A DNA stretch of 64,000 bases from Anaerolineae bacterium (GTDB lineage: Bacteria > Chloroflexota > Anaerolineae > Caldilineales > Caldilineaceae), in NCBI GenBank assembly GCA_030432295.1, contig JAUIHI010000002.1:62001-126000 (forward strand). The letters are read 5' to 3'. Below are positions 28,810-56,013 of this stretch, one piece after another (the stretch's first letter is position 1; the number at the start of each line of letters is the position of its first letter). The notes under the pieces are model-generated. The model saw only the letters and a program-made list of their open reading frames with translations, was not told where the DNA came from and did not search any database. Both the position numbers and the translations under genes were made by a program.

Positions 28810-29124
28810 ATGAACCGACAAGCGATCGAAACCCGGGTGATGGAGAAGGCCAGCGCTGACCCGACCTTCCGCCGTCGCCTACTGGACGACCCCAAAGCTG
28901 CGTTGGCCGACTTCCTGGGCGTGTCCCTGCCCGAGGCCGTCACCATTGCGGTCCTCGAAGAGCAGCCGGGTGAGCACTATCTGGTGTTGCCCCCGGCTCC
29001 GCCGGACCTGGACGATCTGGAGCTGGCCCTGGTCGGCGGCGGACGCACGTTGCGGCCGAGTGCTTCGAAAAAAAATATCAAGATCGAAGGAGGTACACCC
29101 AGGTTCCGTCTCGGCGGTTGCTGA
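28810..29124 (+). CDS. NHLP-type RiPP precursor peptide 1 (cassette A)
   Basis: 104 residues. The leader resembles the nitrile-hydratase alpha-subunit-like (NHLP/proteusin) family: DPTFRRRLLDDPKAALADFL, then VLEEQPGEHYLVLPPAPP, ending LELALVGGG. The core after GGG begins RTLRP, is Lys/Arg-rich and ends GGC. It has one Cys (the last residue) and several Ser/Thr, as needed for one thioether ring. It is expected to be a LanM substrate with leader removal at the double Gly by a C39 peptidase. RBS AAAGGAG lies 12 bases upstream. No nitrile hydratase metal site is present. Confidence 0.88.
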   Translation: MNRQAIETRVMEKASADPTFRRRLLDDPKAALADFLGVSLPEAVTIAVLEEQPGEHYLVLPPAPPDLDDLELALVGGGRTLRPSASKKNIKIEGGTPRFRLGGC

Positions 29125-29171
29125 CAGGCGTCACTTGAATTCATAACCGCTTAGCCAAGGACAATCATACG

Positions 29172-29519
29172 ATGACAAAACTGATCAAATCTTCACAAGA
29201 GATGGAAGCCCGTATCATCGAAGCGGCTAACCAAAATCCGTCATTCCGCCGTCGCCTGCTGGACGACCCCAAAACCGCGTTGGCAGACTTCCTGGGCGTG
29301 TCCCTGCCCGAGGCCGTCACCATCACTGTGCTGGAAGAGCAGCCGGGCCAGCACTATCTGGTGTTGCCCCCGTCCCCGCCCAGCCTGGACGCCCTGCCCC
29401 TGGACGACCTGGAACTGGCTCTGGTCGGCGGTGGACGCACCTTACGCCCTGGTGTAGTGAATTGTAAGTGTTGTGAGTCATCTAACCCACGACGAAATGT
29501 AAGCCGAAGCTCCTGCTGA
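29172..29519 (+). CDS. NHLP-type RiPP precursor peptide 2 (cassette A)
   Basis: 115 residues. The leader is nearly identical to precursor 3 (SSQEMEARIIEAANQNP, RRRLLDDPKTALADFLGV) and ends LALVGGG. The core begins RTLRPG, contains a CKCC cluster plus a terminal SSC, and has several Ser residues: four Cys, so up to four thioethers. The core is Arg-rich. It follows precursor 1 by 47 bases with a CAAGGAC leader. Confidence 0.88.
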   Translation: MTKLIKSSQEMEARIIEAANQNPSFRRRLLDDPKTALADFLGVSLPEAVTITVLEEQPGQHYLVLPPSPPSLDALPLDDLELALVGGGRTLRPGVVNCKCCESSNPRRNVSRSSC

Positions 29520-29574
29520 GCGATTGCACCCTACCCGATACTGACGACCGTTGGACGGCAAGGACAAAGATACT

Positions 29575-29934
29575 ATGACACTATTCGTTAAATCTTCGCA
29601 AGAGATGAAAGCCCGCATCATCAAAGCGGCGAACCAAAATCCGACCTTCCGCCATCGGCTTTTGGACGACCCCAAAGGGGCTCTGGCCGATGTTCTGGGC
29701 GTGTCCCTGCCCGCGGCCGTCACCATCACCGTGCTGGAGGAGCAACCGGGCCAGCACTATCTGGTGTTGCCCCCGGCCCCGCCAAACCTGGACGCCCTGC
29801 CCCTGGCCGATCTGGAACTGGCCTTGGTCGGCGGCGGTCGCACCCTACGGCCGGGCAGCGCTTCACCGGGGGGTGGGGTGAATCCTAGACGGCGGGATTT
29901 GCCATCTACGTCTGCACGCCAAAGTGCCTGTTGA
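29575..29934 (+). CDS. NHLP-type RiPP precursor peptide 3 (cassette A)
   Basis: 119 residues. The start at 29575 (MTLFVKSSQEMKARI) aligns with precursor 2; an in-frame upstream start at 29551 is less likely. The leader ends LALVGGG and the core begins RTLRPG, then SASPGGG, with an Arg-rich middle and terminal QSAC, a single Cys. It lies 19 bases before the GNAT gene. Confidence 0.88.
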   Translation: MTLFVKSSQEMKARIIKAANQNPTFRHRLLDDPKGALADVLGVSLPAAVTITVLEEQPGQHYLVLPPAPPNLDALPLADLELALVGGGRTLRPGSASPGGGVNPRRRDLPSTSARQSAC

Positions 29935-29953
29935 TGCGATTGTACCCAACCCT

Positions 29954-30849
29954 ATGCTGACCATCCAGCGGCTGGACGCCCAATCCCTACGCCCCTTTGT
30001 CCTGCTGGTGCAGCCAGGTCTACGCCGGTCGATCCTGGAAGGACAAGGGGACCCGGATCAGATTGTGCTGGGCGCGCTCTTTTTGGGTCAGCCGGTGGGC
30101 GTGGCCGTACTTCACCTGAACCAACCAACTGTCGGGCTGACCGACCTCTACGTGCTGCCCGACTACCGCAGGACAGGTATCGGCTCTACGCTGCTGGCTG
30201 CCGCGGAAGAAGAAGCCCGGCGATCAGGCGTCGGCACACTGCATACCCTCTACCGGGCCACCGAGCATACCCCTCCCTTTGAGCGTCTGCTGGCCACACA
30301 GGGCTGGGAGACCCCGCGCCTCCAGTCAAAAGTCTACTGGACCACTTGCAGCGCGGGCTATGACGGTTGGGCACAGCGCTACCGCTTCCGCCGGCCCTAC
30401 GAGCCGGTCCTGTGGGCAGAAATAACCGAGGCCGAGCGCCAGGCCATTGCCCGGCGAGGCGAAAACGGCTGGTATCCGCCTACGCTTGATCCCTTCCAGC
30501 GACCCGACGACGATTGGGACCCGGAGACCAGCCTGGGTTTGCGCTACAAAGGCGAGGTGGTGGGCTGGCTGCTCACCCTGCGCGAGGCCCCGGACCAGAT
30601 TCGGGTGGAAATCATGTTCGTGGATCCGCCTCTTCAGCGACTGGGCCGGGGCATTCTGCTCATCTGCGAGATGATCCGCCGCTATTGCAACGACGGCGAC
30701 TACGCGGGGGCTGCAACGAGCACTGCTACTGGCGGGTCAGCCCAGAAAACGAGGGGATGATCCGCTGGTCCCAACGCTCCTTTCCGGGCCGCTTCACAGA
30801 TGAGTACGAGGAGTGGTACAGCGAAAAAGCACTTTGCCCCAAGCCATAG
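29954..30849 (+). CDS. Tandem-GNAT acyltransferase, cassette A, with a one-base frameshift
   Basis: The start at 29954 (MLTIQRLDAQS) matches the paralogue at 36435. The first GNAT half carries an acyl-CoA motif in LPDYRRTGIGSTLLAAAEEEA, and the second is around DPPLQRLGRGILLICEMIRR. The uninterrupted frame stops at 30760. Compared with the paralogue, one G is missing from the G-run at 30706-30710; adding it restores NEHCYWRV...EEWYSEK to 30849. This is either a true frameshift or a homopolymer sequencing error. Its role is probably modification of precursor-derived peptides, as for GNATs in known RiPP clusters (family knowledge). It is convergent with SARP-EF copy 2. Confidence 0.8.
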
Positions 30850-30855
30850 GGACGG

Positions 30856-32328
30856 CTATCTCTCCTTCGACCAGGGGTTGCCATAGAGATAGTTGCCCAC
30901 CGCGTCCGGGTCGTTGGAGAAGTGAAATTGGCGCAGATAGCCGCGTATCTCATCCAGTGTCAGATAGCCGTCTCGATCTCTGTCCAGACGGCGGAAGTTG
31001 CTGAGGGCGTCCATTTCGCCCCCCCACGCTGTCATCCATTTGGCATATTCCTGGGCCGACAAGAGGCCGTCCCGATCCCCATCAAAGAGTTGAAAGTGGA
31101 TACGCACGCTATCGTCCAGACTCTGGATGGCGGCGCGCTCGCTCCCAATCGTCTGTTGGGCCGTCGTCTGCATTACTTCGCTCCAGAAAGCCAACCAGCC
31201 GTCCAGCGTAACCGATAGTTCCCCCACATTGTTCTGTGCTCTCTCCCCCGCACTTTTGATCCCTGCCCACCAATTCTGAATATCGACCAGTGCTTGACGA
31301 TAGATAGACGATTCGACGGAAACCGGGCCGATGGCCGCGGCCCGGTCCAGATAGCGCTGAAAATCGCTCCACTGAATCTTCCCATCCCCATCCTGATCGA
31401 TGATGCAAAAAAAGTGACACTGTTTCTGACGTTGCAGCAGCCCCAGGGCACTAATCGCCGCTGGCCCGGTTGCTTCCCCAGAGAACGGCGGCGGGTCTGG
31501 CAATGGCGGGGCGCTGACCGGAATGACTGGGCCAGTTGGATGTCCATTCTCCGGCGGCGCGGCGGGGGAGTGGCCGGTTTGGATGCCTTCAAAGAAGCGA
31601 ATCATCTGGCGGGAAGGCAGGGCCGCCAGTTCCTCGTGCAAATCGGCCACGTAGTCCTGGTAGCGGCGCAGGGCCAGGCTGCGTTGCCCGTTGGCCACAT
31701 AGAGCGCCATCACCTGCCGAATTCCTTCCTCGTACAGTGGGTTGACCCCCAGAACACCCTTCCAGCGTTCGATGGCTGAGGCCGGGTCGCCCAGACGGCT
31801 CTCGGCCATAGCCACCTGTTCCATTGCACTCGCCCACTCCTGGCGCAGAATGTCCCCGTTCAAACTTTGCCAGAGATCAAACTCCGGGCAATCTGGCAGG
31901 GAAAAACCGGCCAAAAAATCGTTCCGGTAGAGGGCAAGGGCCGCATACTGGCGCGCCGTACAGTCGGGGCAGACGCTTTCGCTGCTGTGGGTGTGGCCTT
32001 CTGGCACAAGCAAAAGAGAGCGAAATTGGGCCACGTCACAGGCGTCCGCCTGTTCTGTCGTCAGGCTGACCTGAAAGCGATCGACCGCCAGGCCAAAATC
32101 GGCCAGGCCCGTACGCAGGGCATAGAGGGTGCGGCGCAGGTGGGCCAGGGCCGCGGCGGGCGCGTAGTCGGGCCAGAAGAGCGTGGCCAGGGCTTCCCGG
32201 CTCTGCTTCTTGCCGGAAACCGCCAGATAGGCAAGCAGTGCCAGTCCCTTGCGGCGACTGAGGGCGATAGGTTCTTTGTCAATCTCAATACGTGGATAGC
32301 CAAAGAGGAAAATGCGGTAGTGGCTCAA
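30856..32328 (-). CDS. BTAD/SARP regulator fused to a calerythrin-like EF-hand domain (copy 2)
   Basis: 490 residues from a TTG start (MSHYRIFLFGYPRIEIDKEP). It has the same layout as copy 1: winged-helix DNA-binding region with ATLFWPDYAPAAALAHLRRTLYALR, BTAD region to about residue 250, Pro-rich linker, then EF hands DQDGDGKIQWSD, DGDRDGLLSAQE and DRDRDGYLTLDE. The tail is FHFSNDPDAVGNYLYGNPW. The loops are closer to canonical than in copy 1. It is divergent from the NHL gene of cassette B. Both copies lack the NTPase and TPR parts of AfsR. Confidence 0.85.
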   Translation of the reverse strand: MSHYRIFLFGYPRIEIDKEPIALSRRKGLALLAYLAVSGKKQSREALATLFWPDYAPAAALAHLRRTLYALRTGLADFGLAVDRFQVSLTTEQADACDVAQFRSLLLVPEGHTHSSESVCPDCTARQYAALALYRNDFLAGFSLPDCPEFDLWQSLNGDILRQEWASAMEQVAMAESRLGDPASAIERWKGVLGVNPLYEEGIRQVMALYVANGQRSLALRRYQDYVADLHEELAALPSRQMIRFFEGIQTGHSPAAPPENGHPTGPVIPVSAPPLPDPPPFSGEATGPAAISALGLLQRQKQCHFFCIIDQDGDGKIQWSDFQRYLDRAAAIGPVSVESSIYRQALVDIQNWWAGIKSAGERAQNNVGELSVTLDGWLAFWSEVMQTTAQQTIGSERAAIQSLDDSVRIHFQLFDGDRDGLLSAQEYAKWMTAWGGEMDALSNFRRLDRDRDGYLTLDEIRGYLRQFHFSNDPDAVGNYLYGNPWSKER

Positions 32329-32669
32329 TAATCTCTACTTTTGAGGAAGGGGGCGAAATCGGGCCGACGCTGAAAGTATAGCACCGGGGGAGGAAGCGTC
32401 CAACTAGCCATTCTCCTGGCAACGGAACTGCCACGCCCCAGCCACGCAAAAGGTACGTGGCAACCGGCCCAAAGCGACGTTACGGCAACGGCGGCGTGGG
32501 ATACTCAAGCGATCCCATTTGTACTATCACCTACTGATATGGCTTCACTGCAAAAAAACTAAAAAACTCGGTTTTTTAGTACCGGTCCACTTTTAGGAAT
32601 CCGGGCGATCTACACGAAAAACTCGGTTTTTTGCAGTAGACCCACTCTACCAGAATCGCCGGAGAAAGT
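32329..32669. other. Divergent regulatory region, SARP-EF copy 2 / NHL copy 2
   Basis: No gene. CCACGCC (32431-32437) and CCACGCA (32442-32448) form a 7-mer direct repeat with an 11-base period, as in SARP operators, but no -10 box sits 8 bases away. Match quality is 6/7, so chance is possible. A family-C repeat occupies 32549-32637, and the NHL gene has GGAGAAAG before its ATG. Confidence 0.35.
32549..32637. repeat. Family-C repeat (AAAAACTCGGTTTTT)
   Basis: Two copies of AAAAACTCGGTTTTTT lie 54 bases apart, enclosed by complementary ACTGCAAAAAA / TTTTTTGCAGT ends. The same AAAAACTCGGTTTTT motif, with its complement at similar spacing, occurs inside the LanM reading frame at 59599-59666. 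Confidence 0.8.
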
Positions 32670-35519
32670 ATGACGACGCTAATTTCAAGGCGGGCCTTTG
32701 CCGTCCATCTACTGCGCAACGCATTTCTTGGCTTTGCCCTGCTTTTTGTTCTCTTTCTGGGCGTCCCCCACCAGTCAGCGCCTTCCCCAACCGAAAAGTC
32801 GTCGTTTGTGGGCAAGACAGGCCGTCTGGTCTTAGGCAAGCTCGCCACCCTCTCGGCAGCCCGCCAGGCCCACGCGGCTGATCTGGACGGAGAACTGGAC
32901 AATGTGGCCGATCTGGTCTACGGCCAGAACGATTTCGCGTCCAAGGGCCTGCCTGCCTCGGCCTCAGCCGTCAACCAGAACCAGGCCACGGACCTCTTCG
33001 TCTATGACACGGGCCAGCTATTTGTGGCCGACACCGAACACAACCGGGTGCTGATCTGGGACAGTGTGGATACCTATTCGATCGGCGACCCCGCGGATAT
33101 TGTGCTGGGCCAGCCGGACTTCATCACCACCGACGCACCCAGTCCACCCAGAGCCGACAGTATGAACCAGCCATCGGGCCTTACCGTCGGCTACGATGGC
33201 ATTCTCTACGTCTCCGACACAGGCAACCACCGGGTGCTGGTCTTCGTCCCCTGGAACATCTGCGACTTCTACGAATACTACGACGACATCTGGTGCATTG
33301 AGGCGGATGGCTACGAGTTTTCCGACTACTTTGTCCCTGTCTTCACCACGTGGATGAACGCGGACTACGCCCTGGGCCAGCCCGACCTGACCACAGGAAC
33401 CCTGCGCGCCGCCGCCCAGAACAGCCTCAACCACCCGATGGGCGTCGTCACCGATGTCAACGACAATCTGGTGGTGGCGGACCGGGACAACAACCGGGTG
33501 CTCATCTACGAATGGCCCCTGAGCGACGGCCAAGACGCGGTTTGGATTGTGGGCCAGACCGCCGACAACGGAAAAGTCGGCAACTTCACCTCCACCGAAG
33601 CACCCAATCCGCCGACCAGGCTCAGCCTGAATGGTCCAACTTCGGTGGCTGCGGGCACTCTGGGAAACGAACTCTATGTGGCCGACACAGGCAACAATCG
33701 GGTACTGGTCTTCACCGATGACCCCATCGATGGCTTTGCCGACGCGGTGATCGGCCAGCCGGACTATATCAGCAAGGGGGCTGGCGTAGGAGAAACCCGG
33801 CTGGACGGCCCTACCGGTCTCAAAATGGATGCGGGCAACCGGCTCTTTGTGGCCGACCGCAACAACAATCGGGTGCTCTTCTTCGATCAGGTCCAGCCTG
33901 ATGGCAATGCGGATGGAGTGATCGGCCAGCCAGATTTCGCCAGCAATGGCGCAAACAACGGCGGCATCGGCCCGGCCACCCTTTCTGCCCCCACAGGCAT
34001 CGCCACCGACGCCTATTTTATGGATGTCTACATTGCCGACCGGGGCAACAACCGGGTGTTGCAGTACAGTCAGCCCCTGCAAAACCCCAGCCCCGTCATC
34101 AGCGAACTGAATCCGGGCACTGTGCTGGCGGGCAGCGATGGCTTCACACTGGATGTCTGGGGTTCTGGCATCATTCAGGGGACAGTCGTCGAAATCAATG
34201 GCAGCGCCCGCATCACCGGCACTAAATTCCTGGGCATTTCTGAGGTGAAGATTGCCGCCAGTGAACTGGAAACCAGCGGCGAAATCACCATCACCCTGCG
34301 CAATCCTCTGCCCGGTGGCGGCGTCTCCGCACCCTACACTCTTTCTGTCTATGAGCCGGTTGTCGGCGACGATCAGGCGGACAGTGTACTGGGGCAAAAA
34401 GGCTTCACCACCGATGATGGCGCCTTTGTCCATCTGGCTGCCAACACCCTCTTTGAGCCGGGCGGTGTGGTGGTCGATCCGACCAGCGGGCGGATATTCG
34501 TCTCGGACCAGGGCAACAGCCGTATTCTCAGTTGGCCCAGCACCGCGGCCCAGGCCAACGGCAAGAACGCGGATTTGGTCATCGGCCAGCCCGATTTCCA
34601 ATCGTCGGGCGCGGGAGCGAATCCACTGCATAACATCCTGGCCCCCGCGGGGTTGGCCCTGGACAGCGCGGGCAATCTCTACGCGGCCGATGCCCAGTTG
34701 GATGTGGTGCAGGTCTACAGCCCGCCCTTCAGCAACGGTATCGCAGCCTCCGCCACTATCACTGGCTTCTCCAATCCCCTGGCAGTAGCTGTGGACAGTC
34801 TAAACAATCTTTATGTGACTGATTCCTTGAATAACCGGGTACTCTTCTACGAACAACCCCTGAGCGGCGATCTGTTGCCTGACCGGGTCTACGGCCAGGC
34901 GGACTTGAGTAGCACCGATCCGAATCGGGGTGGGGCCATCAGCGCCGACACCCTCCACTTCCCAGCGGGGCTGGCCCTGGATAGCAGCGGCAACCTCTAC
35001 ATCTCCGACGCTTCCAACCACCGGGTGCTGGTCTATCTGGCCGGCACGGACGGGGACACGGGCGCGGATGCGGGCGCGGACGTAGTCTTCGGCCAGGCGG
35101 GGGATTTTACCAGCGGCATAGCCAATAATGGCGGGGTGAGCGCCCAGAGTCTCAACTTCCCCTTTGGCCTGCTCATCGACGCCGAGGGCAGCCTCTACGT
35201 GACCGACAGCGACAACAACCGGCTGCTGCGCTACGACGCCCCCCTGACCAGCGACCGGGTGGCGGATGAAGTCTACGGCCAGGGCGGTTCCTTCACCCAG
35301 AACCCGGCCAACCGCAGCAATCTGGCCCCCACGGATGGGGCCCGCATAAATGGGGGGGGACGCAGCCAGGCCAGCCTGCGTGAGCCAAGCGCGATCGCCC
35401 TCTCCCCCGACGGCAGCCTGTATGTGGCGGATTATCGTAACAACCGGGTGCTGGCTTTCCAGACGGATCGCCGGGGTGTGGCCCGCTGGGGTATCTTCCT
35501 GCCCAGTGTGGCGCGGTGA
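32670..35519 (+). CDS. Secreted NHL-repeat beta-propeller protein with central IPT/TIG domain (cassette B)
   Basis: 949 residues. The N-terminal membrane or signal segment is FLGFALLFVLFLGVPH. As in the cassette A protein, twelve NHL-type repeats (NNRVL, NHRVL, NSRIL variants) lie in two blocks of six around an IPT/TIG region (PVISELNPGT...LRNPLPGGGVSAP). The C-terminus is WGIFLPSVAR. One blade has an extra acidic/aromatic loop near residues 190-215 (CDFYEYYDDIWC). RBS GGAGAAAG precedes the ATG. Confidence 0.88.
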   Translation: MTTLISRRAFAVHLLRNAFLGFALLFVLFLGVPHQSAPSPTEKSSFVGKTGRLVLGKLATLSAARQAHAADLDGELDNVADLVYGQNDFASKGLPASASAVNQNQATDLFVYDTGQLFVADTEHNRVLIWDSVDTYSIGDPADIVLGQPDFITTDAPSPPRADSMNQPSGLTVGYDGILYVSDTGNHRVLVFVPWNICDFYEYYDDIWCIEADGYEFSDYFVPVFTTWMNADYALGQPDLTTGTLRAAAQNSLNHPMGVVTDVNDNLVVADRDNNRVLIYEWPLSDGQDAVWIVGQTADNGKVGNFTSTEAPNPPTRLSLNGPTSVAAGTLGNELYVADTGNNRVLVFTDDPIDGFADAVIGQPDYISKGAGVGETRLDGPTGLKMDAGNRLFVADRNNNRVLFFDQVQPDGNADGVIGQPDFASNGANNGGIGPATLSAPTGIATDAYFMDVYIADRGNNRVLQYSQPLQNPSPVISELNPGTVLAGSDGFTLDVWGSGIIQGTVVEINGSARITGTKFLGISEVKIAASELETSGEITITLRNPLPGGGVSAPYTLSVYEPVVGDDQADSVLGQKGFTTDDGAFVHLAANTLFEPGGVVVDPTSGRIFVSDQGNSRILSWPSTAAQANGKNADLVIGQPDFQSSGAGANPLHNILAPAGLALDSAGNLYAADAQLDVVQVYSPPFSNGIAASATITGFSNPLAVAVDSLNNLYVTDSLNNRVLFYEQPLSGDLLPDRVYGQADLSSTDPNRGGAISADTLHFPAGLALDSSGNLYISDASNHRVLVYLAGTDGDTGADAGADVVFGQAGDFTSGIANNGGVSAQSLNFPFGLLIDAEGSLYVTDSDNNRLLRYDAPLTSDRVADEVYGQGGSFTQNPANRSNLAPTDGARINGGGRSQASLREPSAIALSPDGSLYVADYRNNRVLAFQTDRRGVARWGIFLPSVAR

Positions 35520-35528
35520 CGATCTCGA

Positions 35529-35591
35529 CCTTCCGGGAAGCGGCCAAACCTTCTTCTGCTCCCTCTGATTTTGTGGCCGCTTCCCGGAAGG
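35529..35591. repeat. Family-B palindrome between NHL 2 and precursor 4
   Basis: CCTTCCGGGAAGCGGCCA and TGGCCGCTTCCCGGAAGG are perfect complements, the same arms as at 23804, with a different loop. It lies 10 bases after the NHL stop and could attenuate read-through into the precursor genes. Confidence 0.85.
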
Positions 35592-35658
35592 CTGTTATAC
35601 GATATTTGAAACACAATTCTGCGATAAATCACAATGAACCCATAGAAGGAAGCAGCCG

Positions 35659-35994
35659 ATGAGTACCAATGCCCTTTCCAAAGCGGAGATCGAAGCCCGC
35701 CTGATCCAACAGGCCGCCCAGGACCCCAGCTTCCGCCAACGCCTGCTGGATGACCCCAAAGCCGCCATCGCCGACTTCCTGGGCGTGGCCCTGCCGCCCG
35801 CGATGACCCTCACTGTGCTGGAAGAAACGCCGGGCCAGCACTATCTGGTCCTGCCCCCGGCTGCGCCAAAGTTGGATGCCCTGCCCCTGGATGAACTGGA
35901 CCTGGCCCTGGTCGGCGGCGGGCGTACCATGCGGCCGGGCCAGAGATTAGGGACTGTAGAGGGAAGGGCGAGCATGCGTCGTAGTGCCTGTTGA
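35659..35994 (+). CDS. NHLP-type RiPP precursor peptide 4 (cassette B)
   Basis: 111 residues. The leader has DPSFRQRLLDDPKAAIADFL, LEETPGQHYLVLPPAAP and LDLALVGGG. The core begins RTMRPG, is short (about 23 residues), and ends RRSAC with one Cys at the end. RBS AGAAGGAAG is well placed. Confidence 0.88.
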   Translation: MSTNALSKAEIEARLIQQAAQDPSFRQRLLDDPKAAIADFLGVALPPAMTLTVLEETPGQHYLVLPPAAPKLDALPLDELDLALVGGGRTMRPGQRLGTVEGRASMRRSAC

Positions 35995-36058
35995 CCCAGG
36001 CAGGAGTCCGATTAGATCGTAGATTGATGCCAATCACAGTTTGGAGATCCACCAAGCA

Positions 36059-36415
36059 ATGAGCATTCATACACAAACAAAACAAGAGATCGAGAGCCGC
36101 GTTCTGCGACGAGCTGCCCAAGACCCCACCTTCCGCCAGCGCCTGCTGGATGACCCCAAAGGGGTGGTTTCCACATTCCTGGGCGTGGCCCTGCCGCCGG
36201 GGATGACCCTCACTGTCCTGGAAGAAACGCCGGGGCAGCACTATCTGGTGCTACCTCCGGCCATGCCCGATCTGGACGCCCTGCCTTTGGGCGATCTGGA
36301 CTTAGCCCTGGTCGGCGGCGGGCGCACCATGCGGCCCCTTAGTAACACCTGTACAATTGGTATTGATTGTCCCGTGAATTCTGATACCCGGGTTGCTGGT
36401 CGCGGTGCGTGCTGA
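36059..36415 (+). CDS. NHLP-type RiPP precursor peptide 5 (cassette B)
   Basis: 118 residues from the ATG at 36059 (MSIHTQTKQEIESR); the longer frame would use TTG. The leader has DPTFRQRLLDDPKGVVSTFL and ends LDLALVGGG. The core begins RTMRPLS, contains TCTIGIDC and ends GRGAC, giving three Cys and several Thr/Ser: up to three rings. It is followed after 19 bases by the cassette B GNAT. Confidence 0.88.
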   Translation: MSIHTQTKQEIESRVLRRAAQDPTFRQRLLDDPKGVVSTFLGVALPPGMTLTVLEETPGQHYLVLPPAMPDLDALPLGDLDLALVGGGRTMRPLSNTCTIGIDCPVNSDTRVAGRGAC

Positions 36416-36434
36416 AGCCAAAAGAGCGGGAAGT

Positions 36435-37325
36435 ATGCTGACAATTCAAATTCTGGATAAGGTGTCCGTACTGCCCTACCTTCTGATGTTGGCCCCCGGC
36501 CTGCGCCATCCTTTGCTGGGGGGCGAAGACGATGCGGCGCAGATCGTCCTGGGCGCAACCTTCTGGGGACAGCCGGCCGGTGTGGCCATCGCCTATCGGG
36601 GCGCAGACTCTGCCCGGCTGCTGGATATCTACGTCCTGCCCAGCTACCGCCAGGCGGGCATCGGCCGCGCCCTGCTGGCGGCAGTGGAGGAGGCGTGCCG
36701 TCTAGCGGGTAAATCCCGGGTCCAGGCCCTTTATTGCCCGAATGAGCAGACACCCGCCTTCGAGGCACTTCTGGTCAAAGAGGGGTGGGCCGCGCCTCTT
36801 GTGCGCTCCCGGGTCTATTGGACCAGTTGCAGCGCGGGCTACGACGGGTGGGCCCAGCGCTACCGCTTCCGTGCGCCCTACGAGCCGGTTCTGTGGGCAG
36901 AAATAAGCGAGGCCGAGCGCCAGGTCATCGCCCGGCGGGGCGAAGGCGGCTGGTATCCTCCCCATCTCGATCCATTGACCCGTCCAACCGGCGATTGGGA
37001 CCCGAAGACCAGCCTGGGGTTGCGCTATAAAGGGGAGGTGGTGGGCTGGCTGCTCACTTTGCGCGAGGCCCCGGACCAGATTCGGGTGGAAATCATGTTC
37101 GTCGATCCCCCGCTGCAACGACTGGGCCGGGGGATTTTGTTGATCTGCGAGATGATCCGACGCTATTGCAACGACGGCGAGTATGCCGGAGGCTGCAACG
37201 AGCACTGCTACTGGCGGGTGGACGCAGCCAATGAGGGGATGATCCGCTGGTCCCAGCGCTCCTTTCCGGGCCGCTTCACAGATGAGTACGAGGAGTGGTA
37301 CACTGAGAAGATTCTCGACCCGTAA
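36435..37325 (+). CDS. Tandem-GNAT acyltransferase, cassette B (intact)
   Basis: 296 residues. The first half has an acyl-CoA motif in LPSYRQAGIGRALLAAVEEA. The second half shows SLGLRYKGEVVGWLLTLRE and DPPLQRLGRGILLICE. The tail, NEHCYWRV, RWSQRSFPGRF and EEWYTEKILDP, defines the intact C-terminus missing from cassette A's frame. RBS GCGGGAAG precedes the ATG; an earlier in-frame start would overlap precursor 5. GNATs in RiPP clusters can attach acyl groups to the peptide; the substrate here is not known. Confidence 0.88.
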   Translation: MLTIQILDKVSVLPYLLMLAPGLRHPLLGGEDDAAQIVLGATFWGQPAGVAIAYRGADSARLLDIYVLPSYRQAGIGRALLAAVEEACRLAGKSRVQALYCPNEQTPAFEALLVKEGWAAPLVRSRVYWTSCSAGYDGWAQRYRFRAPYEPVLWAEISEAERQVIARRGEGGWYPPHLDPLTRPTGDWDPKTSLGLRYKGEVVGWLLTLREAPDQIRVEIMFVDPPLQRLGRGILLICEMIRRYCNDGEYAGGCNEHCYWRVDAANEGMIRWSQRSFPGRFTDEYEEWYTEKILDP

Positions 37326-37371: not shown

Positions 37372-37902
37372 ATGAGTGATAAGCAACTGTTGCAGATGGG
37401 CGCGTGGTGCGCATTTGGGCTGGCCGCCGCGCTGGTAATCAACGGCATCGCCACTTTCATCGGGCCATCTGTATTCTGGCTGGTTTCGCGTATTGGTATT
37501 GTACTTTTTCTCTTCGGCCTGCTTCCCGCTCTGCGCGCAAAGCTCCTGCCCACCCATTCAGGCTGGGTCGAATGGCTGACCAATCTGGCCTATCTCGGCG
37601 CAGGCGCAGAAGCGCTGCAAATTCTGGGCAACCTGGAATTTGACTCCTTTTATCTCTTCTTCGGTGGGCTGGGCCTCTGGATCATCGGGATCAACCTTCT
37701 GGCCATGCGCCATCATTTGTGGCCCAGTGTTTTGGCGTGGATCGGCTGCGCCAGCGGCGTGCTGCTGCTGGGAGAAATCTTGTCGGATCTGATCCCAGCC
37801 CTGGCATTCATGGACCTATACTCAGCCGCGCTGGGTGCTGTGGTGCTCTATCCCGTTTGGTTGGTCTGGCAGGGCGTACGAATGCGGGCGGAGGCTGGCT
37901 AA
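37372..37902 (+). CDS. Small integral membrane protein, unknown function
   Basis: 176 residues with about five hydrophobic helices (for example AFGLAAALVINGIATFI, IGIVLFLFGLLPAL, SAALGAVVLYPVWLVW). It starts MSDKQLLQMG after AAAGGAAATCGC. It resembles small multi-pass proteins of the DUF4386 type only loosely, so no family is claimed. Its stop overlaps the convergent minus-strand regulator by four bases. Being downstream of a precursor/GNAT cassette, it might give immunity, but nothing in the sequence shows this. Confidence 0.75.
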   Translation: MSDKQLLQMGAWCAFGLAAALVINGIATFIGPSVFWLVSRIGIVLFLFGLLPALRAKLLPTHSGWVEWLTNLAYLGAGAEALQILGNLEFDSFYLFFGGLGLWIIGINLLAMRHHLWPSVLAWIGCASGVLLLGEILSDLIPALAFMDLYSAALGAVVLYPVWLVWQGVRMRAEAG

Positions 37903-40900
37903 CCTCCACACTGGCTGATCCCGTCCGATCCGGGCCGTATTTGGAAGCACTCACTCCTCTGATCAGACCCGGCCAACAATTCCGCCACCATTCGATCCAC
38001 CGAACCTGTCCCCACTGATTCCATAGGACGGGGGCCGGAGCCGAAGATCGACAAATACTCCTTGGCAGGGGCCAGGCTGGACAGCAGGGCCGCGGCCCGC
38101 TGGCGGAAGATGGATTGGAGGGGCAGTTCCTGCAAGACCAGAACGAGCAGGTCCACCGCCTGTTTGGCCAGGGACGCCTTCTCCATCAAAGCCGAAATCC
38201 CCATACTCTCTGCCGCCAACAGGTGGGCCAGATAGACCAATACCTCCGCCTGGAGGGGACGCAGGCCAGTCTCCACAGCCAGGGCCAAACTCTCGCGCAG
38301 CCAGGCCCGGGCCTGGTCCAGTCGCCCCGTCTCCCAGCAGATGTGGGCCAGCCCGTTGAGACAGGTGACGATCCCCCGGCTGAAATCCACCCGACGGGCC
38401 AGGGCCAGCCCCTCTTCCAAAACCGGCTGGGCCTGGGCAAAATCCGCACAGTCGATGTGTACCAGGCCCAGGACACTCAGCGTCGCCGCGATATGGATGG
38501 GGTGCCCCACCCGGCGCGCACGCACAAGACTCGCATCCAATTGTGCCCGCGCCACGGCCAGACAGTCGCCTCCCCGCGCCCAGGCCACCGCGCCCAGCCC
38601 AGTCGAAGCCAGGGCCATCCCAAGTTCATTCCCCACTTCGCAAAAGAGGCCCAGACTCTCCGTATACGCATCTTCGGCACCGGCAAGGTTGCCCAGCAGC
38701 AGATCGCAATAGGCCAACTGATCCAGGGCATAGCCCAGCCCGTCCTGGCTGTTGGCCCGGCGGCTGATGGCGACACAGCGCTGCAGGATGGCCCGGGCTT
38801 CTTCAAAATCGCCAATGGAGTGGGTCAGCTCCCCCAGACGGTAGAGAGCGAACCCTTCACCGGCCCGATTCCCCGCCTGCCGGTTGAGCAGAATACTCTC
38901 GTCCAACATTCGGCGTGCGTCACCAAATTGGCCCCGCCACCCCTCGAACTCCCCCAGAAAGGTAAGACAGAAGGCGGTATCGCCTGGTCTCCCCTGGCTG
39001 CGGGCAATCTCCAGGGCAGCGCGCAGCATCCCCATGCCCGGCTCCATCTCGCCGCTGCTCACTGTAAAGAAGCCTTGCCGGGCCAAGGCCCGACCCAGCA
39101 CAGACTCCCATTCCTGGGCCGCTTCATCTCCCCTGTCCACAGCTTTTTGGATGGCTTGGGCCAGACGCGCAAAGCAATCCCGCCCCTCCGCGTAGCGTCC
39201 TCGGTTGAGGCAGAAGGCAAAGAGACTGGCCTGGGCCTGATCCATCCGGGCAAAGCGCTGGTGATCTGCGGCCCAAGCCCAGGCCGAAAGCACATTGGCA
39301 AATTCCCGATCAACCGCGGCCAGAGAATCTTTCTGCACGGCACTGAAGAAATCCTCCCGGTGGCGGGCCATAAAATTGAGAAAATAGTCGCTGTGTTGGC
39401 CCAGAGCCGCGGCCCGGACCTGGGGTCGGCGGGCGAGCTGCTTCTCGGCAAAGCGGCGCACCAGCGCGTGCATCTGGTAGTGTTCATCCCCGGTCAAATG
39501 GAGAAGCGTCTTCTCCACCAGCCGTCCGAGCAGAGGAAGATCGGCATCCGCCACGCATTGGGCGGCCTCGGCGTGAAAGCTGCCACCGCAGAGGGCAAGA
39601 CGGGCCAGTGCGTCCCGTTCTGCCGGGGAGAGCAGATCCCACGTCTTGCCCAGCACAGCCTGAATGCTGCGATGGCGATCGGGGATAGTCCTGGCCGAAG
39701 TAGCCAGGAAGCCCAGGTCTGCCTCGATCTGGTCAGCGATCTGGCGACAGGAGAGCCGGGAGAGCCAGGACGCCGCCAGTTCGATGGCCAGGGGCAGCCC
39801 ACCAACCAACCGGCAGATGCGCACCACACTGGCCGGGTCCGCCTCTAGTCGAAAGTCCGGGCTGCGTTGGCGGGCATTGCGCACAAAGAGGGCGACCGCA
39901 GGCGAAGCGGCCAGAGCTTTCGGATCGGTGACGTCTGGCAACGGGACGGGCAAGCCCTGGAGGGGGAAGAGCCACTCCTCCCACAGGTGGAGAGGCGTCT
40001 GGGATGTGACCAACAGTTTAAGCTTTTCAGCCCTGGCCAGGAACTGCTCCACCCACCCGGCCAGACCCGGCAGATGTTCGCAGTTGTCCAAAATCAGCAG
40101 CAACTGGCGGGGGCGCAGATGGGCAATCACCTGCTCATCCAGCCTGCGATCGCCGTAGAGGGCCAGGCCCAGGGATTGGGCCACCACACCCATTGCGCCT
40201 TCGGCGGTTTCGGCTTGCAGCAGAGAGGCAAACCAAATCCCGTCCGGAAAGGCATCTCCATAGAGCGGGTTGCCGGATAGCTCCTGGGCCACGGCGTGGG
40301 CCAAATGGGTCTTGCCCACGCCGCCCAGCCCGGTCAATGTCAGAAGCCGACAGTGGGGGTCCGTGAGCCGGGAGAGAAGTTGGGTCAGTTGGCTCTGGCG
40401 ACCCACCAGTGGCGGTTGTTGCTGGTGGAAAGGCAGGCCCGATGTAACAGGCGGCAGAGAAGGCGACGTGACAAGCGGCGGGGAAGGCGATGGGCTGGCG
40501 ATGACGGCCATCGGGTCCGGCTGTCCCAGTGAGCCGTCGCGAATCCGCTCATACAGTTGCATAGTCTCCGCGGCCAGCGGCAGACCCAATTCCTCCTGCA
40601 AAATTTCTTGGCAGCGGGCATAGTGGGCCAGGGCTGCGCTGCGCTGGCCCTGCATGGCCAGGGCCAACAGCAGGGCACGGTGGGCCTCTTCCCGCCAGGG
40701 ATCGTGGGCCAATTGCTGGTTGGCATAGTGCTGGGCAGCCAGATAGTCTCCCCGCGCCGTAGCCTGGTCGGTCGACCGGGTCCAGGCGGCCATGGCCTGC
40801 TGGTGTAGATGCTGCCGGGTGATCTGTGCCCACTCTTCAAAGGCCGGACTGTCATCGACTGCCAAGCCGTCGAGAAATGGCCCCCGGTAGAGTTCCACCG

Positions 40901-41255
40901 CCTGCTCTGGGGATCCCTGCTGCACATGGGCCAGAAATGCGGCCACATCCAGCCAATGGGGGCCTGCCCGAAGGAACTGTACATCCAGACGGGAGACGAG
41001 CAGAACCTGGTTGCTTGGATTGTCCAGAGTTTTGTTGAGTTGGAAGAGGGCCTGGCGCAGGCTGCGGTTGGCGTCTGCCTGGGGAAAATCGGGCCAGAGC
41101 AGTCCTGTCAGTTTGGCCCGGGAATGGGGCTGGGTAGATTCCACGGCCAGATAGGCGAGGAGGGCCTGAGTCTTTGCGGAATAGAATCGGGGGATTGGTT
41201 CTTCGCCGAGCCGCGCCCGGAATGTACCGAGCAGAGAGAGGGATAGGGTCTGCAT
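37899..41255 (-). CDS. AfsR-like transcriptional regulator: BTAD/SARP + STAND NTPase + TPR
   Basis: 1118 residues. The N-terminal DNA-binding domain (LTGLLWPDFPQADANRSLRQALFQL) is followed by a BTAD domain to about residue 250. An NB-ARC-type NTPase has Walker A GLGGVGKT and Walker B LLLILDNCEHL. A long TPR-like helical region (GDFEEARAILQRCVAIS and similar) follows. AfsR-type proteins activate secondary-metabolite genes. It is divergent from the beta-helix gene at 41562, and a perfect 11-period repeat lies between them. Confidence 0.9.
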   Translation of the reverse strand: MQTLSLSLLGTFRARLGEEPIPRFYSAKTQALLAYLAVESTQPHSRAKLTGLLWPDFPQADANRSLRQALFQLNKTLDNPSNQVLLVSRLDVQFLRAGPHWLDVAAFLAHVQQGSPEQAVELYRGPFLDGLAVDDSPAFEEWAQITRQHLHQQAMAAWTRSTDQATARGDYLAAQHYANQQLAHDPWREEAHRALLLALAMQGQRSAALAHYARCQEILQEELGLPLAAETMQLYERIRDGSLGQPDPMAVIASPSPSPPLVTSPSLPPVTSGLPFHQQQPPLVGRQSQLTQLLSRLTDPHCRLLTLTGLGGVGKTHLAHAVAQELSGNPLYGDAFPDGIWFASLLQAETAEGAMGVVAQSLGLALYGDRRLDEQVIAHLRPRQLLLILDNCEHLPGLAGWVEQFLARAEKLKLLVTSQTPLHLWEEWLFPLQGLPVPLPDVTDPKALAASPAVALFVRNARQRSPDFRLEADPASVVRICRLVGGLPLAIELAASWLSRLSCRQIADQIEADLGFLATSARTIPDRHRSIQAVLGKTWDLLSPAERDALARLALCGGSFHAEAAQCVADADLPLLGRLVEKTLLHLTGDEHYQMHALVRRFAEKQLARRPQVRAAALGQHSDYFLNFMARHREDFFSAVQKDSLAAVDREFANVLSAWAWAADHQRFARMDQAQASLFAFCLNRGRYAEGRDCFARLAQAIQKAVDRGDEAAQEWESVLGRALARQGFFTVSSGEMEPGMGMLRAALEIARSQGRPGDTAFCLTFLGEFEGWRGQFGDARRMLDESILLNRQAGNRAGEGFALYRLGELTHSIGDFEEARAILQRCVAISRRANSQDGLGYALDQLAYCDLLLGNLAGAEDAYTESLGLFCEVGNELGMALASTGLGAVAWARGGDCLAVARAQLDASLVRARRVGHPIHIAATLSVLGLVHIDCADFAQAQPVLEEGLALARRVDFSRGIVTCLNGLAHICWETGRLDQARAWLRESLALAVETGLRPLQAEVLVYLAHLLAAESMGISALMEKASLAKQAVDLLVLVLQELPLQSIFRQRAAALLSSLAPAKEYLSIFGSGPRPMESVGTGSVDRMVAELLAGSDQRSECFQIRPGSDGISQCGG

Positions 41256-44726: not shown

Positions 44727-44735
44727 GTGAACGAA

Positions 44736-48028: not shown

Positions 48029-48048
48029 ACACCAGAGGAATAGCCAGA

Positions 48049-48110: not shown

Positions 48111-48132
48111 AGAACACTTTTGGCAGGTTGGG

Positions 48133-48250
48133 ATGGCGGATATGTATTGGCGGGTCAGTACCGACAACGAGCCGATGCTGCGATGGTCGGCCAGAGCCTT
48201 CGCGGGCGAGGGGCTGGTCGATCAGTACGGCGAGTGATACAGCGAGAAAA
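48133..48250 (+). pseudogene. C-terminal remnant of a tandem-GNAT acyltransferase
   Basis: The frame at 48133 reads MADMYWRVSTDNEPMLRW, then SARAFAGEGLVDQYGE, a stop at 48235, and YSEK beyond it. This matches the C-terminus of the intact GNATs (YWRASPDNEPMVRWSRRAF...EWTSEK). The rest of the gene is absent. The EGLVDQY variant is shared with the remnant at 56909 but not with the three longer GNATs, so both come from one lost lineage. Confidence 0.8.
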
Positions 48251-48262
48251 GTTTGGGGGCAT

Positions 48263-51968: not shown

Positions 51969-51974
51969 CTCTTC

Positions 51975-52181: not shown

Positions 52182-52224
52182 ACAGGTGGATTTTATGATA
52201 GACCACAGCAGGTGTCACAGCCAC

Positions 52225-52258
52225 AACGTGCAGGCCGAAACGTGGGCCATGAAACGTG
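52225..52258. promoter_or_regulatory. Three AACGTG repeats at 14-base spacing
   Basis: AACGTG occurs at 52225, 52239 and 52253, exactly 14 bases apart, with GGCC shared between the first two intervals. It lies 62 bases before the NHL start. It may be a regulator array or chance; nothing else supports it. Confidence 0.35.
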
Positions 52259-52319
52259 AAACATCACTTTTTCAGAAGAGTGGAACTGTCCATTCCTCAA
52301 CCAAGGAGGAACCAAAAAC

Positions 52320-55133
52320 ATGAAGAAATTATTACAAAAACGCTTTGTCCGTTTGCTCCTCGTTCTTGCCCTCGGGGGGCTAATCCCCGTGGGGCTGGTG
52401 GTGCTTCCTGGCCTGTTGGACCAAGCGGAGGCTATACCAACCATCAAGAAGATGTCCACCAACGCCCACCTGGGCCAGGCCCTGGTCTCTGGCGTACGCA
52501 CGGCCGCGGCTGCCGAACTTGAGGGAGAGTTGGACCCGATTGCCGATGTCCTCTTCGGCCAGCCCGATTTCTCCACAGGCACTGCACCCGACACGCCCAC
52601 GGCCACAAACCTGAACGCTCCCGGGGATATCTTCGTCTTCGACCTGACCGGCCAGCTCTTTATGGCCGACACGGCCCACAACCGGGTACTGATCTGGGAC
52701 AGCGTTGACTTCTATTTGGACGGAGACCCGGCCAATGTGGTCTTGGGCCAGCCCGACTTTGAGACGACGGAGGTGCTGGACCCACCCAACGACGCCAGCA
52801 TGAACGCCCCCAAGGGGATCACTGTGGGCTTTGACGGACTCATTTACGTCTCGGACACAGGCAACAACCGGGTGCTGGTCTTCTTTCCCTATAACTATAT
52901 GGATGATGACTATTATCCCGGCGAATCCTATCCCATCTTCGTGAACTATCAGGATGCTGACTATGTGCTGGGCCAGCCCGACTTTGAGAGCAACGGGGCC
53001 CGGCCCACCAACAGCAACACCCTGAATCAGCCCCACGGCATCGTGACCGATGTCAAGGACAATCTGGTGCTGGCCGACCACGGCAACAACCGGGTGCTGA
53101 TCTTCGAGTGGAGCGAAGCTGGCACCATCGGCCCCTCTGCCAACTGGGTAGTGGGCCAGGGAGACACAGATGCGGGAATCTTTACACTCAACGCGGCAGC
53201 GGACCCACCCACCCAAAGCAGTCTGAACGGGCCAACCGGTGTGGCCGCAGACACCCTGGGCCGGGCCATCTACGTGGCCGACACAGGCAACAACCGCATC
53301 CTGCTCTTCACCGACGATCCCCTGGATGCCGTCGCCGATGGGGTGATCGGCCAGCCCAACTATGTGAGCAAAGCGCCCAACAACGGCGGTATCAGCGCCA
53401 CCAGCCTCAATCATCCCACGGGGCTGAAGATGGATGCGGGCAGCCGTCTGTTTGTGGCCGACAGCCACAACCACCGGGTGCTCACCTTCGACCTGACCGC
53501 CACCGAAGTCACGGCGGACGCGGTCTTCGGCCAGCCCGATTTTGCCAGCAACACAGCCAACCACAGCGGTATCAGCGCCTCCACCCTCTACACGCCCACG
53601 GGCATTGCCACCGACGCCCTCTACATGGACGTCTACATCACCGACGGGGGCAACAACCGCACCCTGCAATACTATCAGCCCCTGCAAAACCCCCAGCCCG
53701 TCATCGCCGAATTGAATCCTGGCACCGTGCCGCCAGGCTTGACCGACTTCAGCTTCCTGGACTACGGGACAGACGGGTCGTTTGAGGTCGCCATCTGGGG
53801 GTCTGGCATCATCTCGGACACGGTGATCGAGGTCAACGGCGTGGCCCGCTCCACCGGTACCGACTTTCTGGGGTTGGCCTACACCGAGATCCAGGCCAGC
53901 GAGGTGGTCACCACTGGCCAGATCACCATCACCCTGCGCAATCCTGCACCGGGCGGCGGCGTCTCCAACCCCTTCGCCCTGGATATCTACGAACCCCTGC
54001 CCGGTGACGACCTGGCCGACAGCGTCATCGGCCAGCAGAGCTTCACCAGCAACGAAGGCACCTTTGGCCGCATCTCCGCCGCCACTCTCTTCCAGCCCAG
54101 CGGCATGGTGGTGGACCCGGAGAGCGGACGCATCTTCGTGGCCGACACGGGCAACGCCCGGGTGCTGAGCTGGCCCAGCGAAGAGGCCCAGGCCAACGGC
54201 GGCGCGGCCGATCTGGTCATCGGCAAGCCCGACTTTTACACCTACTTCTACGACGCTGGGTTGGGCCTCAACCTCGGCCGCCCCGTTGGGCTCGCCCTGG
54301 ACAACGAGGGCAATCTCTACGTAACCGATGCCCAGGAAAATGTGGTCCTGGTCTACACCCGGCCCTTCACCAACGGTATGGACGCGGCTCTAATCATCCG
54401 CAATCTCTTCAACCCGCTGGATCTGGCTCTGGACAGCCAGGACAATCTCTACGTGGCCGACACCTTCAACCACCGGGTGCTCTTTTACGAGACACCCCTG
54501 GCCAGCGGCGACACTACGCCGGATCAGGTCTTCGGCCAGCCGGACATGGACGGCGGAGAGCCTAACGCAGGGGGCAGCATCAGCGCCGAGAGCCTGCACT
54601 ATCCCAGCGGTGTGGCAGTGGACGGGGCGGACAATCTCTACGTCTCCGACAGCCAGAACCATCGGGTGCTGGTCTATCTGGATCCGGCCAGCGGAGATAC
54701 CAGCGCCGATGTCGTCTTCGGCCAGATGGGCGACTTTACCACGGGCACGGCCAACAAAGGCGGGGTGAGCGCGCAGAGCCTGAACTATCCCTACGGCCTG
54801 CTGGTGGATGGGGACGGCAATCTCTATGTCTCCGACGCGGACAACAACCGGGTGCTGGGCTACGCCGCTCCCCTGGGCACAGACACGGTGGCGGATCTGG
54901 TCATCGGCCAATCCGGCTCCTTTGCCCGGGGCGCGGTCAACCAGGGGCGCCGCACGGCCCAGGGCAATGATGCCCGCAACCAGGCCACCCTGCGCGGGCC
55001 GACTTCCATCGGACTCAACGCGAACGGGGACCTCTTTGTGGCCGACAACGGCAACAACCGTATCCTCGGCTTCCGGGAGAGCAAGATCATCCAAGTGCAG
55101 TGGGACCTATTCCTGCCCAGTATGGCGCGATAG
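52320..55133 (+). CDS. Secreted NHL-repeat beta-propeller protein with central IPT/TIG domain (cassette C)
   Basis: 937 residues. The N-terminus MKKLLQKRFVRLLLVLALGG and following hydrophobic residues act as signal or anchor. Twelve NHL-type repeats with NNRVL/NHRVL marks lie six on each side of an IPT/TIG region (PVIAELNPGTVPPGL...LRNPAPGGGVSNP). The C-terminus is LFLPSMAR. RBS AAGGAGG is strong. It shares the motif (A)xLEGELDxIADVLFGQPDF after the signal region with the other two. Confidence 0.88.
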   Translation: MKKLLQKRFVRLLLVLALGGLIPVGLVVLPGLLDQAEAIPTIKKMSTNAHLGQALVSGVRTAAAAELEGELDPIADVLFGQPDFSTGTAPDTPTATNLNAPGDIFVFDLTGQLFMADTAHNRVLIWDSVDFYLDGDPANVVLGQPDFETTEVLDPPNDASMNAPKGITVGFDGLIYVSDTGNNRVLVFFPYNYMDDDYYPGESYPIFVNYQDADYVLGQPDFESNGARPTNSNTLNQPHGIVTDVKDNLVLADHGNNRVLIFEWSEAGTIGPSANWVVGQGDTDAGIFTLNAAADPPTQSSLNGPTGVAADTLGRAIYVADTGNNRILLFTDDPLDAVADGVIGQPNYVSKAPNNGGISATSLNHPTGLKMDAGSRLFVADSHNHRVLTFDLTATEVTADAVFGQPDFASNTANHSGISASTLYTPTGIATDALYMDVYITDGGNNRTLQYYQPLQNPQPVIAELNPGTVPPGLTDFSFLDYGTDGSFEVAIWGSGIISDTVIEVNGVARSTGTDFLGLAYTEIQASEVVTTGQITITLRNPAPGGGVSNPFALDIYEPLPGDDLADSVIGQQSFTSNEGTFGRISAATLFQPSGMVVDPESGRIFVADTGNARVLSWPSEEAQANGGAADLVIGKPDFYTYFYDAGLGLNLGRPVGLALDNEGNLYVTDAQENVVLVYTRPFTNGMDAALIIRNLFNPLDLALDSQDNLYVADTFNHRVLFYETPLASGDTTPDQVFGQPDMDGGEPNAGGSISAESLHYPSGVAVDGADNLYVSDSQNHRVLVYLDPASGDTSADVVFGQMGDFTTGTANKGGVSAQSLNYPYGLLVDGDGNLYVSDADNNRVLGYAAPLGTDTVADLVIGQSGSFARGAVNQGRRTAQGNDARNQATLRGPTSIGLNANGDLFVADNGNNRILGFRESKIIQVQWDLFLPSMAR

Positions 55134-55262
55134 GGGGAAGCGATTGAGAGATTGAGAGATTAGGAGATTGATGCGTGTCAATCGCCCAATCTCCAATCTC
55201 CCAATCGCTTGTCCAACAAACAAATCTCCCATTCATCCAATCTATTCGGAAGAGAATCAATC

Positions 55263-55616
55263 ATGAACCGAAACGCGACTGAAACCCAACTGATCGACAA
55301 AGCAGGCACAGACTCCGCCTTCCGGCGTCGCCTGCTGGCAGACCCCAGAGCCGCCATTGCCGAAATGCTGGGCATGCCCCTGCCGCCGGGAATGGAGATC
55401 ACCGTACTGGAAGAGCAGCCGGGGCAGCACTACCTCGTCCTGCCCCCGGCCCCGCCGAACCTGGACGCCCTGCCCCTGGACGAACTGGATATGGCCCTGG
55501 TCGGTGGCGGGCGCACCCTGCGACCATATTGGGTTAATGCATCCCCCAAGAACCAAATGGGGGGAGAACGTGCCTTCGGCAGACGAGCCAAAAGCGCATC
55601 CAACGCTTCCTGCTGA
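55263..55616 (+). CDS. NHLP-type RiPP precursor peptide 6 (cassette C)
   Basis: 117 residues from the ATG at 55263 (MNRNATETQLIDKAG). Leader: DSAFRRRLLADPRAAIAEML, VLEEQPGQHYLVLPPAPP, LDMALVGGG. The core begins RTLRPYW, is Lys/Arg/Asn/Ser-rich and ends SNASC, with one Cys. RBS GGAAGAG. The upstream in-frame Met at 55209 lies in a low-complexity repeat and is not used. Confidence 0.88.
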   Translation: MNRNATETQLIDKAGTDSAFRRRLLADPRAAIAEMLGMPLPPGMEITVLEEQPGQHYLVLPPAPPNLDALPLDELDMALVGGGRTLRPYWVNASPKNQMGGERAFGRRAKSASNASC

Positions 55617-55656
55617 CCTGCTCACCACTCTATTCATCCAAAAAGGCCTACCCATC

Positions 55657-56013
55657 ATGACAATCATTACCCCATCTCGCCAGGAAATCGACGCCCGCAT
55701 CGTTGACTGGGCCAACACAGACCCCGCCTTCCGCCAGCGCCTGCTGGACGACCCCAAAGCCGCCCTGGCCGAAATGCTGGGCATGGCCCTGCCGCTGGGA
55801 ATGGCCATCACTGTGCTGGAGGAGCAGCCGGGCCAGCACTATCTGGTCCTGCCCCCGGCCCCGCCCAGCCTGAACGCCCTGCCTCTGGACGAACTGGATC
55901 TGGCCCTGGTCGGCGGCGGGCGGACCCTGCGACCGATACTTTTCCCCTGTGGCATGCGCAATACAAGAGCCGCCAATCGTCCTGCAGGAAATACATCCCA
56001 GAGTTCCTGCTGA
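55657..56013 (+). CDS. NHLP-type RiPP precursor peptide 7 (cassette C)
   Basis: 118 residues from the ATG at 55657 (MTIITPSRQEIDARI). Leader: DPAFRQRLLDDPKAALAEML, VLEEQPGQHYLVLPPAPP, LDLALVGGG. The core begins RTLRPILFPCG and ends TSQSSC, with two Cys and several Ser/Thr. An upstream open frame overlaps precursor 6 in another phase and is spurious. It is followed by the cassette C GNAT. Confidence 0.9.
   Translation: MTIITPSRQEIDARIVDWANTDPAFRQRLLDDPKAALAEMLGMALPLGMAITVLEEQPGQHYLVLPPAPPSLNALPLDELDLALVGGGRTLRPILFPCGMRNTRAANRPAGNTSQSSC

Follow-up and report, generated by a model that had tools for sequence, protein, structure and literature searches.

The closest described systems are the selidamides (phaeornamide/kamptornamide and nostolysamide), whose loci combine a LanM, a (tandem) GNAT and a C39 exporter with cleavage at GGG or GG, and whose GNATs acylate Lys or Orn side chains (PMC9505594, PMC13060382). 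Phaeornamide has an NHLP leader, and NpuM carries the three-Cys zinc ligand set that is the mark of ProcM-clade enzymes (PMC13060382). In the prochlorosin (ProcM) and Synechococcus SyncM systems, one LanM of the CCG type acts on several precursors with a conserved leader and varied cores. ProcM-type LanMs accept very varied substrates. Several class II systems, among them cytolysin, lichenicidin and mersacidin, keep a short, constant stretch at the N-terminus once the PCAT has cut and lose it in a second step of leader removal (PMC10885120). The flavipeptin cluster encodes a prolyl oligopeptidase (POP), FlaP, which cuts after Pro in a class III lanthipeptide leader, at -12 (PMC10885120). In lipolanthines, goadvionins and other N-terminally acylated RiPPs, which are class III (or other) systems, the GNAT likely acts on the N-terminal amine.

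Here we analyse a 64,000-nucleotide stretch of Caldilineaceae DNA (the window). By its genes, the locus is of a known general kind, a class II lanthipeptide system with a single LanM for all precursors and with predicted ring chemistry and product; what is unusual is the constant N-terminal handle, the POP, and a GNAT and a propeller in each cassette. As in the selidamides, which are recognised by a GNAT encoded with an NHLP or Nif11 precursor, the GNATs stand with NHLP precursors, a LanM with a ProcM-type three-Cys zinc site and a C39 exporter. Added to this set are the POP, the NHL propeller, two to three paralogous cassettes and an invariant RTLRP at the start of the core. A constant short segment after the exporter cut recalls the class II two-step systems, but here the segment has five residues with Pro as the last, and the candidate protease, an S9 POP that appears to be cytosolic, takes the place of an exported S8 protease. 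A POP in the cluster is shared with flavipeptin, and a GNAT that likely acts on an N-terminal amine is shared with the lipolanthines and goadvionins, although the synthetase here is a class II LanM.

Three cassettes, each with an NHL propeller, two or three precursors and a tandem GNAT, occupy 25677-30849, 32670-37325 and 52320-56908. Cassette C is followed by the POP, the LanM and the C39 exporter, all on the same strand. The features are:

25677..28613, + strand: NHL-repeat secreted propeller, cassette A; probably starts at ~25797; shares 57% identity with the copy in cassette B
28810..29124, + strand: precursor A1, NHLP leader of 78 aa and core RTLRPSASKKNIKIEGGTPRFRLGGC; TIGR03793 E=3.2e-20
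29172..29519, + strand: precursor A2, core RTLRPGVVNCKCCESSNPRRNVSRSSC; TIGR03793 E=2.8e-18
29575..29934, + strand: precursor A3, core RTLRPGSASPGGGVNPRRRDLPSTSARQSAC; TIGR03793 match (genome search); start inside a longer TTG ORF
29954..30849, + strand: tandem GNAT, cassette A; PF00583 E=9e-19; frameshift near 30690, 3' part in the frame of 30514-30849
30856..32328, - strand: SARP-type (BTAD) regulator carrying EF-hands, located between two cassettes; may or may not belong to the system
32670..35519, + strand: NHL-repeat protein, cassette B; PF01436 x7; AF2 model pLDDT 72.8; Foldseek matches NHL/TRIM propellers
35659..35994, + strand: precursor B1, core RTMRPGQRLGTVEGRASMRRSAC; TIGR03793 E=1.1e-17
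36059..36415, + strand: precursor B2, core RTMRPLSNTCTIGIDCPVNSDTRVAGRGAC; TIGR03793 match (genome search)
36435..37325, + strand: tandem GNAT, cassette B; PF00583 E=3e-16; P-loops in both halves
37899..41255, - strand: AfsR-type regulator; the G298 and G299 clusters (genomes defined below) encode a homologue with 58-60% identity
48263..51466, - strand: AfsR-type regulator; the G298 cluster encodes a homologue with 77% identity
52320..55133, + strand: NHL-repeat protein, cassette C; same family as the cassette A and B copies
55263..55616, + strand: precursor C1, core RTLRPYWVNASPKNQMGGERAFGRRAKSASNASC; TIGR03793 E=2e-17
55657..56013, + strand: precursor C2, core RTLRPILFPCGMRNTRAANRPAGNTSQSSC; TIGR03793 match (genome search)
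56030..56908, + strand: tandem GNAT, cassette C; PF00583 E=3e-18; AF2 pLDDT 91.5; best fold match tandem GNAT 2wpw
57024..58961, + strand: prolyl oligopeptidase (S9), POP; PF00326/PF02897; signal peptide not seen; stop codon overlapping the start of the LanM gene
58958..61807, + strand: class II lanthipeptide synthetase LanM; TIGR03897 E=3.5e-139; zinc ligands C815, C858, C859 (ProcM-type CCG)
62017..64000, + strand: C39-peptidase ABC exporter, NHLM type; PF03412 E=2.3e-31; runs beyond the window end to about contig position 126182

The first-pass annotation had described seven cores that follow VGGG with RT(L/M)RP, end in Cys and carry up to three further Cys. Translation confirmed each of these points: after GGG and RT(L/M)RP, the cores end, from A1 to C2, in GGC, SSC, SAC, SAC, GAC, ASC and SSC, with 0-3 Cys besides the last. 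The insert, given there as 12-24 residues, needs a correction: RTLRP is separated from the last three residues by 15-26 residues, and Pro5 from the last Cys by 17-28. The true starts of several precursors are internal to longer mechanical ORFs. All seven precursors score over the cut-off of the NHLP leader model TIGR03793, and they are its only matches in the whole 6.7-Mb genome. Together with the relatives described below, all 15 leaders share a double-glycine pattern with Leu at -12, Leu or Met at -7, Val or Ile at -4 and GG at -2/-1, for a cut after GGG; a LahT150-type C39 peptidase requires hydrophobic residues at -4, -7 and -12 (PMC10885120). Since the leader end is spaced for cleavage behind the third Gly, RTLRP forms the first five core residues and not the end of the leader.

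The LanM, which combines a DUF4135 dehydratase with a LanC-like cyclase, scores 465 bits against TIGR03897 (cut-off 304), and its kinase-like dehydratase residues D/H/K/N/D/E align with those of LicM2. It carries LCCG where LicM2 carries LCHG, the ProcM-type assignment being made from these zinc ligands. As the only DUF4135 protein of the window genome, found with precursors that all have NHLP leaders, it agrees with the earlier proposal of lanthipeptide precursors in which one synthetase serves several cores. The C39 exporter has its catalytic Cys, His and Asp and matches TIGR03796 with E=1.9e-168, yet below the equivalog cut-off. The closest solved relative of the POP is the prolyl oligopeptidase 1yr2 (E=1.5e-88), and its catalytic motifs (SNGG, the proline-pocket Trp, and the Asp and His motifs) are intact in all three genomes that carry RTLRP; the Trp and Asn are assigned after the porcine enzyme. 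Oligopeptidase B, which is Arg/Lys-specific, was considered and rejected as a weaker match to the S9 protein than the POPs. No decarboxylase for a C-terminal AviCys was seen among the scanned window genes.

RTLRP occurs in three genomes: the window genome (G000) and, in its own family, the metagenome-assembled genomes G298 (bacterium RI_153) and G299 (Caldilineaceae bacterium ACE_CHL9). A genome-contig scan and whole-genome searches found eight further intact precursors in the two relatives, for a total of 15, with seven intact cores in the window genome and six and two in the relatives. Homologues lacking RTLRP or the last Cys had been named as evidence against a conserved frame, and none was found among the close homologues: all eight new cores begin with RT(L/M)RP and end in Cys, so both features are present in 15 of 15, which is more than chance would give. 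G298 also holds decayed precursor copies at C37:5305-5682 and C48:18746-18961. Among the 46 genomes of the order that were searched, the same three are the only carriers; the family is absent from six congeners of the window genome and from 37 more genomes of the order, which marks it as an accessory system.

More distant Chloroflexota have similar loci, all without RTLRP: LanM, GNAT, NHLP precursor and C39 in G109 and G129, linked LanM, GNAT and C39 in G369 and G397, and a linked precursor, GNAT and NHL protein in G642. The distant LanM-GNAT loci have neither a POP beside the LanM nor RTLRP. In G109 and G129 a similar gene, an S41 peptidase in G129, lies just upstream of the LanM, the place held by the POP in the RTLRP genomes. 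The G109 and G129 precursors (L089, L090), beside LanM and GNAT, contain a tandem pair of NHLP leader units, and their cores end in ICH.

The fixed core ends are held by purifying selection that acts on the protein sequence. Over all pairs of the 15 sequences, which are not independent and have pS near saturation so that the figures are relative only, pN/pS is 0.42 for the leader, 0 for GGG, 0.07 for RTLRP (pS 0.62, pN 0.046) and 0.81 for the middle (pS 0.73, pN 0.60), which upholds the first-pass idea of a conserved frame around a more variable inner sequence. The RTLRP codons differ synonymously among copies; thus, the ends are kept by purifying selection and not by recent copying, and recent gene conversion was rejected on the same ground. 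The last Cys never varies and is encoded by TGC in some copies and by TGT in others. A Cys also stands at exactly position 10 in nine of the 15 cores, and many core middles contain an N/D/G-(T/P)-R motif.

The middle is variable among paralogues and much less so among orthologues. Counted without gaps, C2, G298_c and G299_b agree in 12-15 of the 17 residues at core positions 14-30 but in only 0-2 of the 8 at positions 6-13, while G298_b and G299_a share 16 of their 17 C-terminal residues. When four orthologous pairs are pooled, identity is 7/32 at positions 6-13 versus 55/68 in the C-terminal 17, figures in which the pairs share sequences and gaps explain part of the difference. Diversification of positions 6-13 by frameshifts was also considered; in DNA alignments of orthologous cores, one pair has in-frame indels, and the gap patterns of others vary with alignment settings.

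The earlier term natural peptide library overstates these patterns: the number of cores per genome is small (7, 6 and 2), and orthologues keep the C-terminal half. A prochlorosin-like library has a conserved leader and an unconserved core, whereas the cores here have fixed ends, orthologous C-terminal halves and Cys10. Unlike the prochlorosins, this system also has an NHLP leader instead of Nif11, few precursors, a fixed N-terminal pentapeptide and terminal Cys that are conserved among orthologues, and a GNAT and a POP.

We then propose a model for the maturation of these peptides. The locus would be a multi-product class II system in which RTLRP is a constant recognition or processing element, most likely a site for a POP cut after Pro5, a reading to which we give slightly less than an even chance. 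The LanM would dehydrate Ser/Thr and couple them to Cys in all seven cores, with the last Cys, plus Cys10 where present, as constant thioether donors. The C39 exporter would remove the NHLP leader after VGGG, and in a second protease step the co-encoded POP would cut after Pro5, leaving as mature product the variable part ending in a ringed Cys. The tandem GNATs, one per cassette, would probably acylate an amine of this product. The rings, the cleavage by the POP, the acylation and the sequence of these steps are all inferred. A processing site had been the secondary option of the first-pass annotation and is now the preferred one: the POP, LanM and C39 exporter form a same-strand run with intact key motifs, the POP adjoins the LanM in all three RTLRP genomes, and all five RTLRP residues are under purifying selection. 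However, all three genomes with both the POP and RTLRP are related members of one family, which counts as roughly a single evolutionary event. With a POP that looks cytosolic and a C39 peptidase that acts during export, the order of steps is awkward, and the Pro at -13 of the leader in 14 of 15 precursors could be a competing POP site. POPs in general favour short peptides, and this one might clear leader fragments or serve self-protection. A POP that generated the N-terminus inside the cell would be the class II equivalent of FlaP.

The acceptor of the putative acyl group can be narrowed from the cores. Peptide arginases belong to pfam12640 (PMC12703449); PF12640 is absent in the window genome and matches sub-threshold only in G298 and G299. 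Because Lys is missing from nine of the 15 cores and no PF12640 arginase is over the cut-off, the alpha-amine is the only amine common to the cores, and the Lys/Orn route of the selidamides was rejected as a general rule for most cores. The same alpha-amine argument has been made for the GNAT PflB (PMC12636437). As the N-terminal alpha-amine is the only amine in most cores, acylation after proteolysis would fit.

Alternatively, RTLRP may be kept in the product as a docking or modification site for the GNAT, with acylation at or near residue 1, as at Lys1 of nostolysamide; we regard this as possible but rather unlikely. NpuN, a tandem GNAT, acylates core residue 1 and has a clear P-loop motif in its N-terminal half only (PMC13060382); in most copies here, P-loop motifs are present in both halves, and nearly every cassette has a tandem GNAT. 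Residue 1 of these cores is an invariant Arg, but Arg is not known as a GNAT acceptor, no peptide arginase was found that would make Orn, and the GNAT relatives in G109, G129 and G642 are paired with cores without RTLRP. Whether as a POP or a GNAT handle, RTLRP would offer a traceless or an acylation tag for class II lanthipeptides with a freely chosen inner sequence.

It is tempting to extend the POP reading to a modular platform, in which the POP removes RTLRP in the cell, the cassette-specific GNAT acylates the freed alpha-amine, each product pairs with its own NHL propeller, the cassettes duplicate as units, and one LanM and exporter serve all; as a whole, this is unlikely. In the NHL proteins, a hydrophobic helix at the N-terminus is joined to two NHL propellers, which a beta-sandwich segment separates (model confidence moderate). 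They may act as carrier, partner or immunity protein, or may be surface proteins with no such role. All nine copies of the family across the three genomes, four of them in G298 and two in G299, lie in RTLRP clusters, and no member was found outside these clusters in G000, G298 or G299 at E<=1e-30. An NHL protein also stands beside the GNAT and NHLP genes in G642. Our search found no literature linking RiPP, lanthipeptide and NHL repeat together; as far as this search showed, the strict link between the propeller and the precursors is undescribed, and it makes a dedicated protein partner testable.

RTLRP might instead be needed only by the exporter or its C39 peptidase, through recognition of the P' side, or for binding of the cassette's NHL propeller, which we consider quite unlikely. 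C39 domains usually recognise the leader side. In mersacidin, residues past the first cut are needed for MrsT activity (PMC10885120), a precedent for the exporter variant, and the confinement of the NHL family to the neighbourhood of these precursors in all three genomes agrees with the propeller variant.

The first-pass annotation had put first one large methyllanthionine ring joining Thr2 and the last Cys around the variable insert, and we now hold this macrocycle to be improbable. Thr2 and the last Cys are the sole Ser/Thr/Cys positions present in all 15 cores, and in six cores the terminal Cys is the only one. However, R1, L/M3, R4 and P5 are equally conserved though the ring needs none of them, every core has at least two other Ser/Thr, Cys10 is a nearer partner for Thr2 in nine of 15, and the ring size would range from 22 to 33 residues. 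Given the equal conservation of R1, R4 and P5, a recognition element is needed with or without a large ring.

That the GNAT and POP give self-protection by acylating or degrading product left in the cell, with RTLRP part of the active peptide, is very improbable: PamZ, a tandem GNAT and antibiotic self-resistance enzyme, is among the GNAT fold matches and POPs break down short peptides, but one GNAT per cassette and the conserved pairing of GNAT and precursor across genomes fit maturation at least equally.

The cassettes are related by duplication. The GNAT tree supports orthology of the C-type cassettes (100/100), the leader tree is too weak, with support below 80 on 7 of its 12 inner branches, and the NHL tree is partly resolved. 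Since the cassette groupings of the NHL tree match those of the GNAT tree only in part, the trees fall short of proving that the cassettes duplicated strictly as units. Within-cassette order can vary: on C48 of G298, the precursor at 890-1348 precedes the NHL gene. The frameshift near 30690 reflects either a broken cassette-A GNAT gene or a sequencing error. Remnants of GNAT C-termini at 48157-48250 and 56920-57013, 79% identical to each other, suggest lost cassettes.

A second SARP-type BTAD regulator fused to EF-hands lies at 23883-25364 on the - strand. A few kb upstream of the cassettes are a C45/AAT-type acyltransferase-hydrolase (19314-20405) and a PRK07529 acyl-CoA synthetase (21708-23753), a possible acyl supply. 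The secreted proteins at 25677-28613, 32670-35519, 41562-44726, 44897-48028 and 52320-55133 all have a similar motif rich in (I/L)(Y/F)LP at the C-terminus, with the versions IYLPAVVR, IFLPSVAR, IYLPLVEQ, IYLPMTQR and LFLPSMAR.
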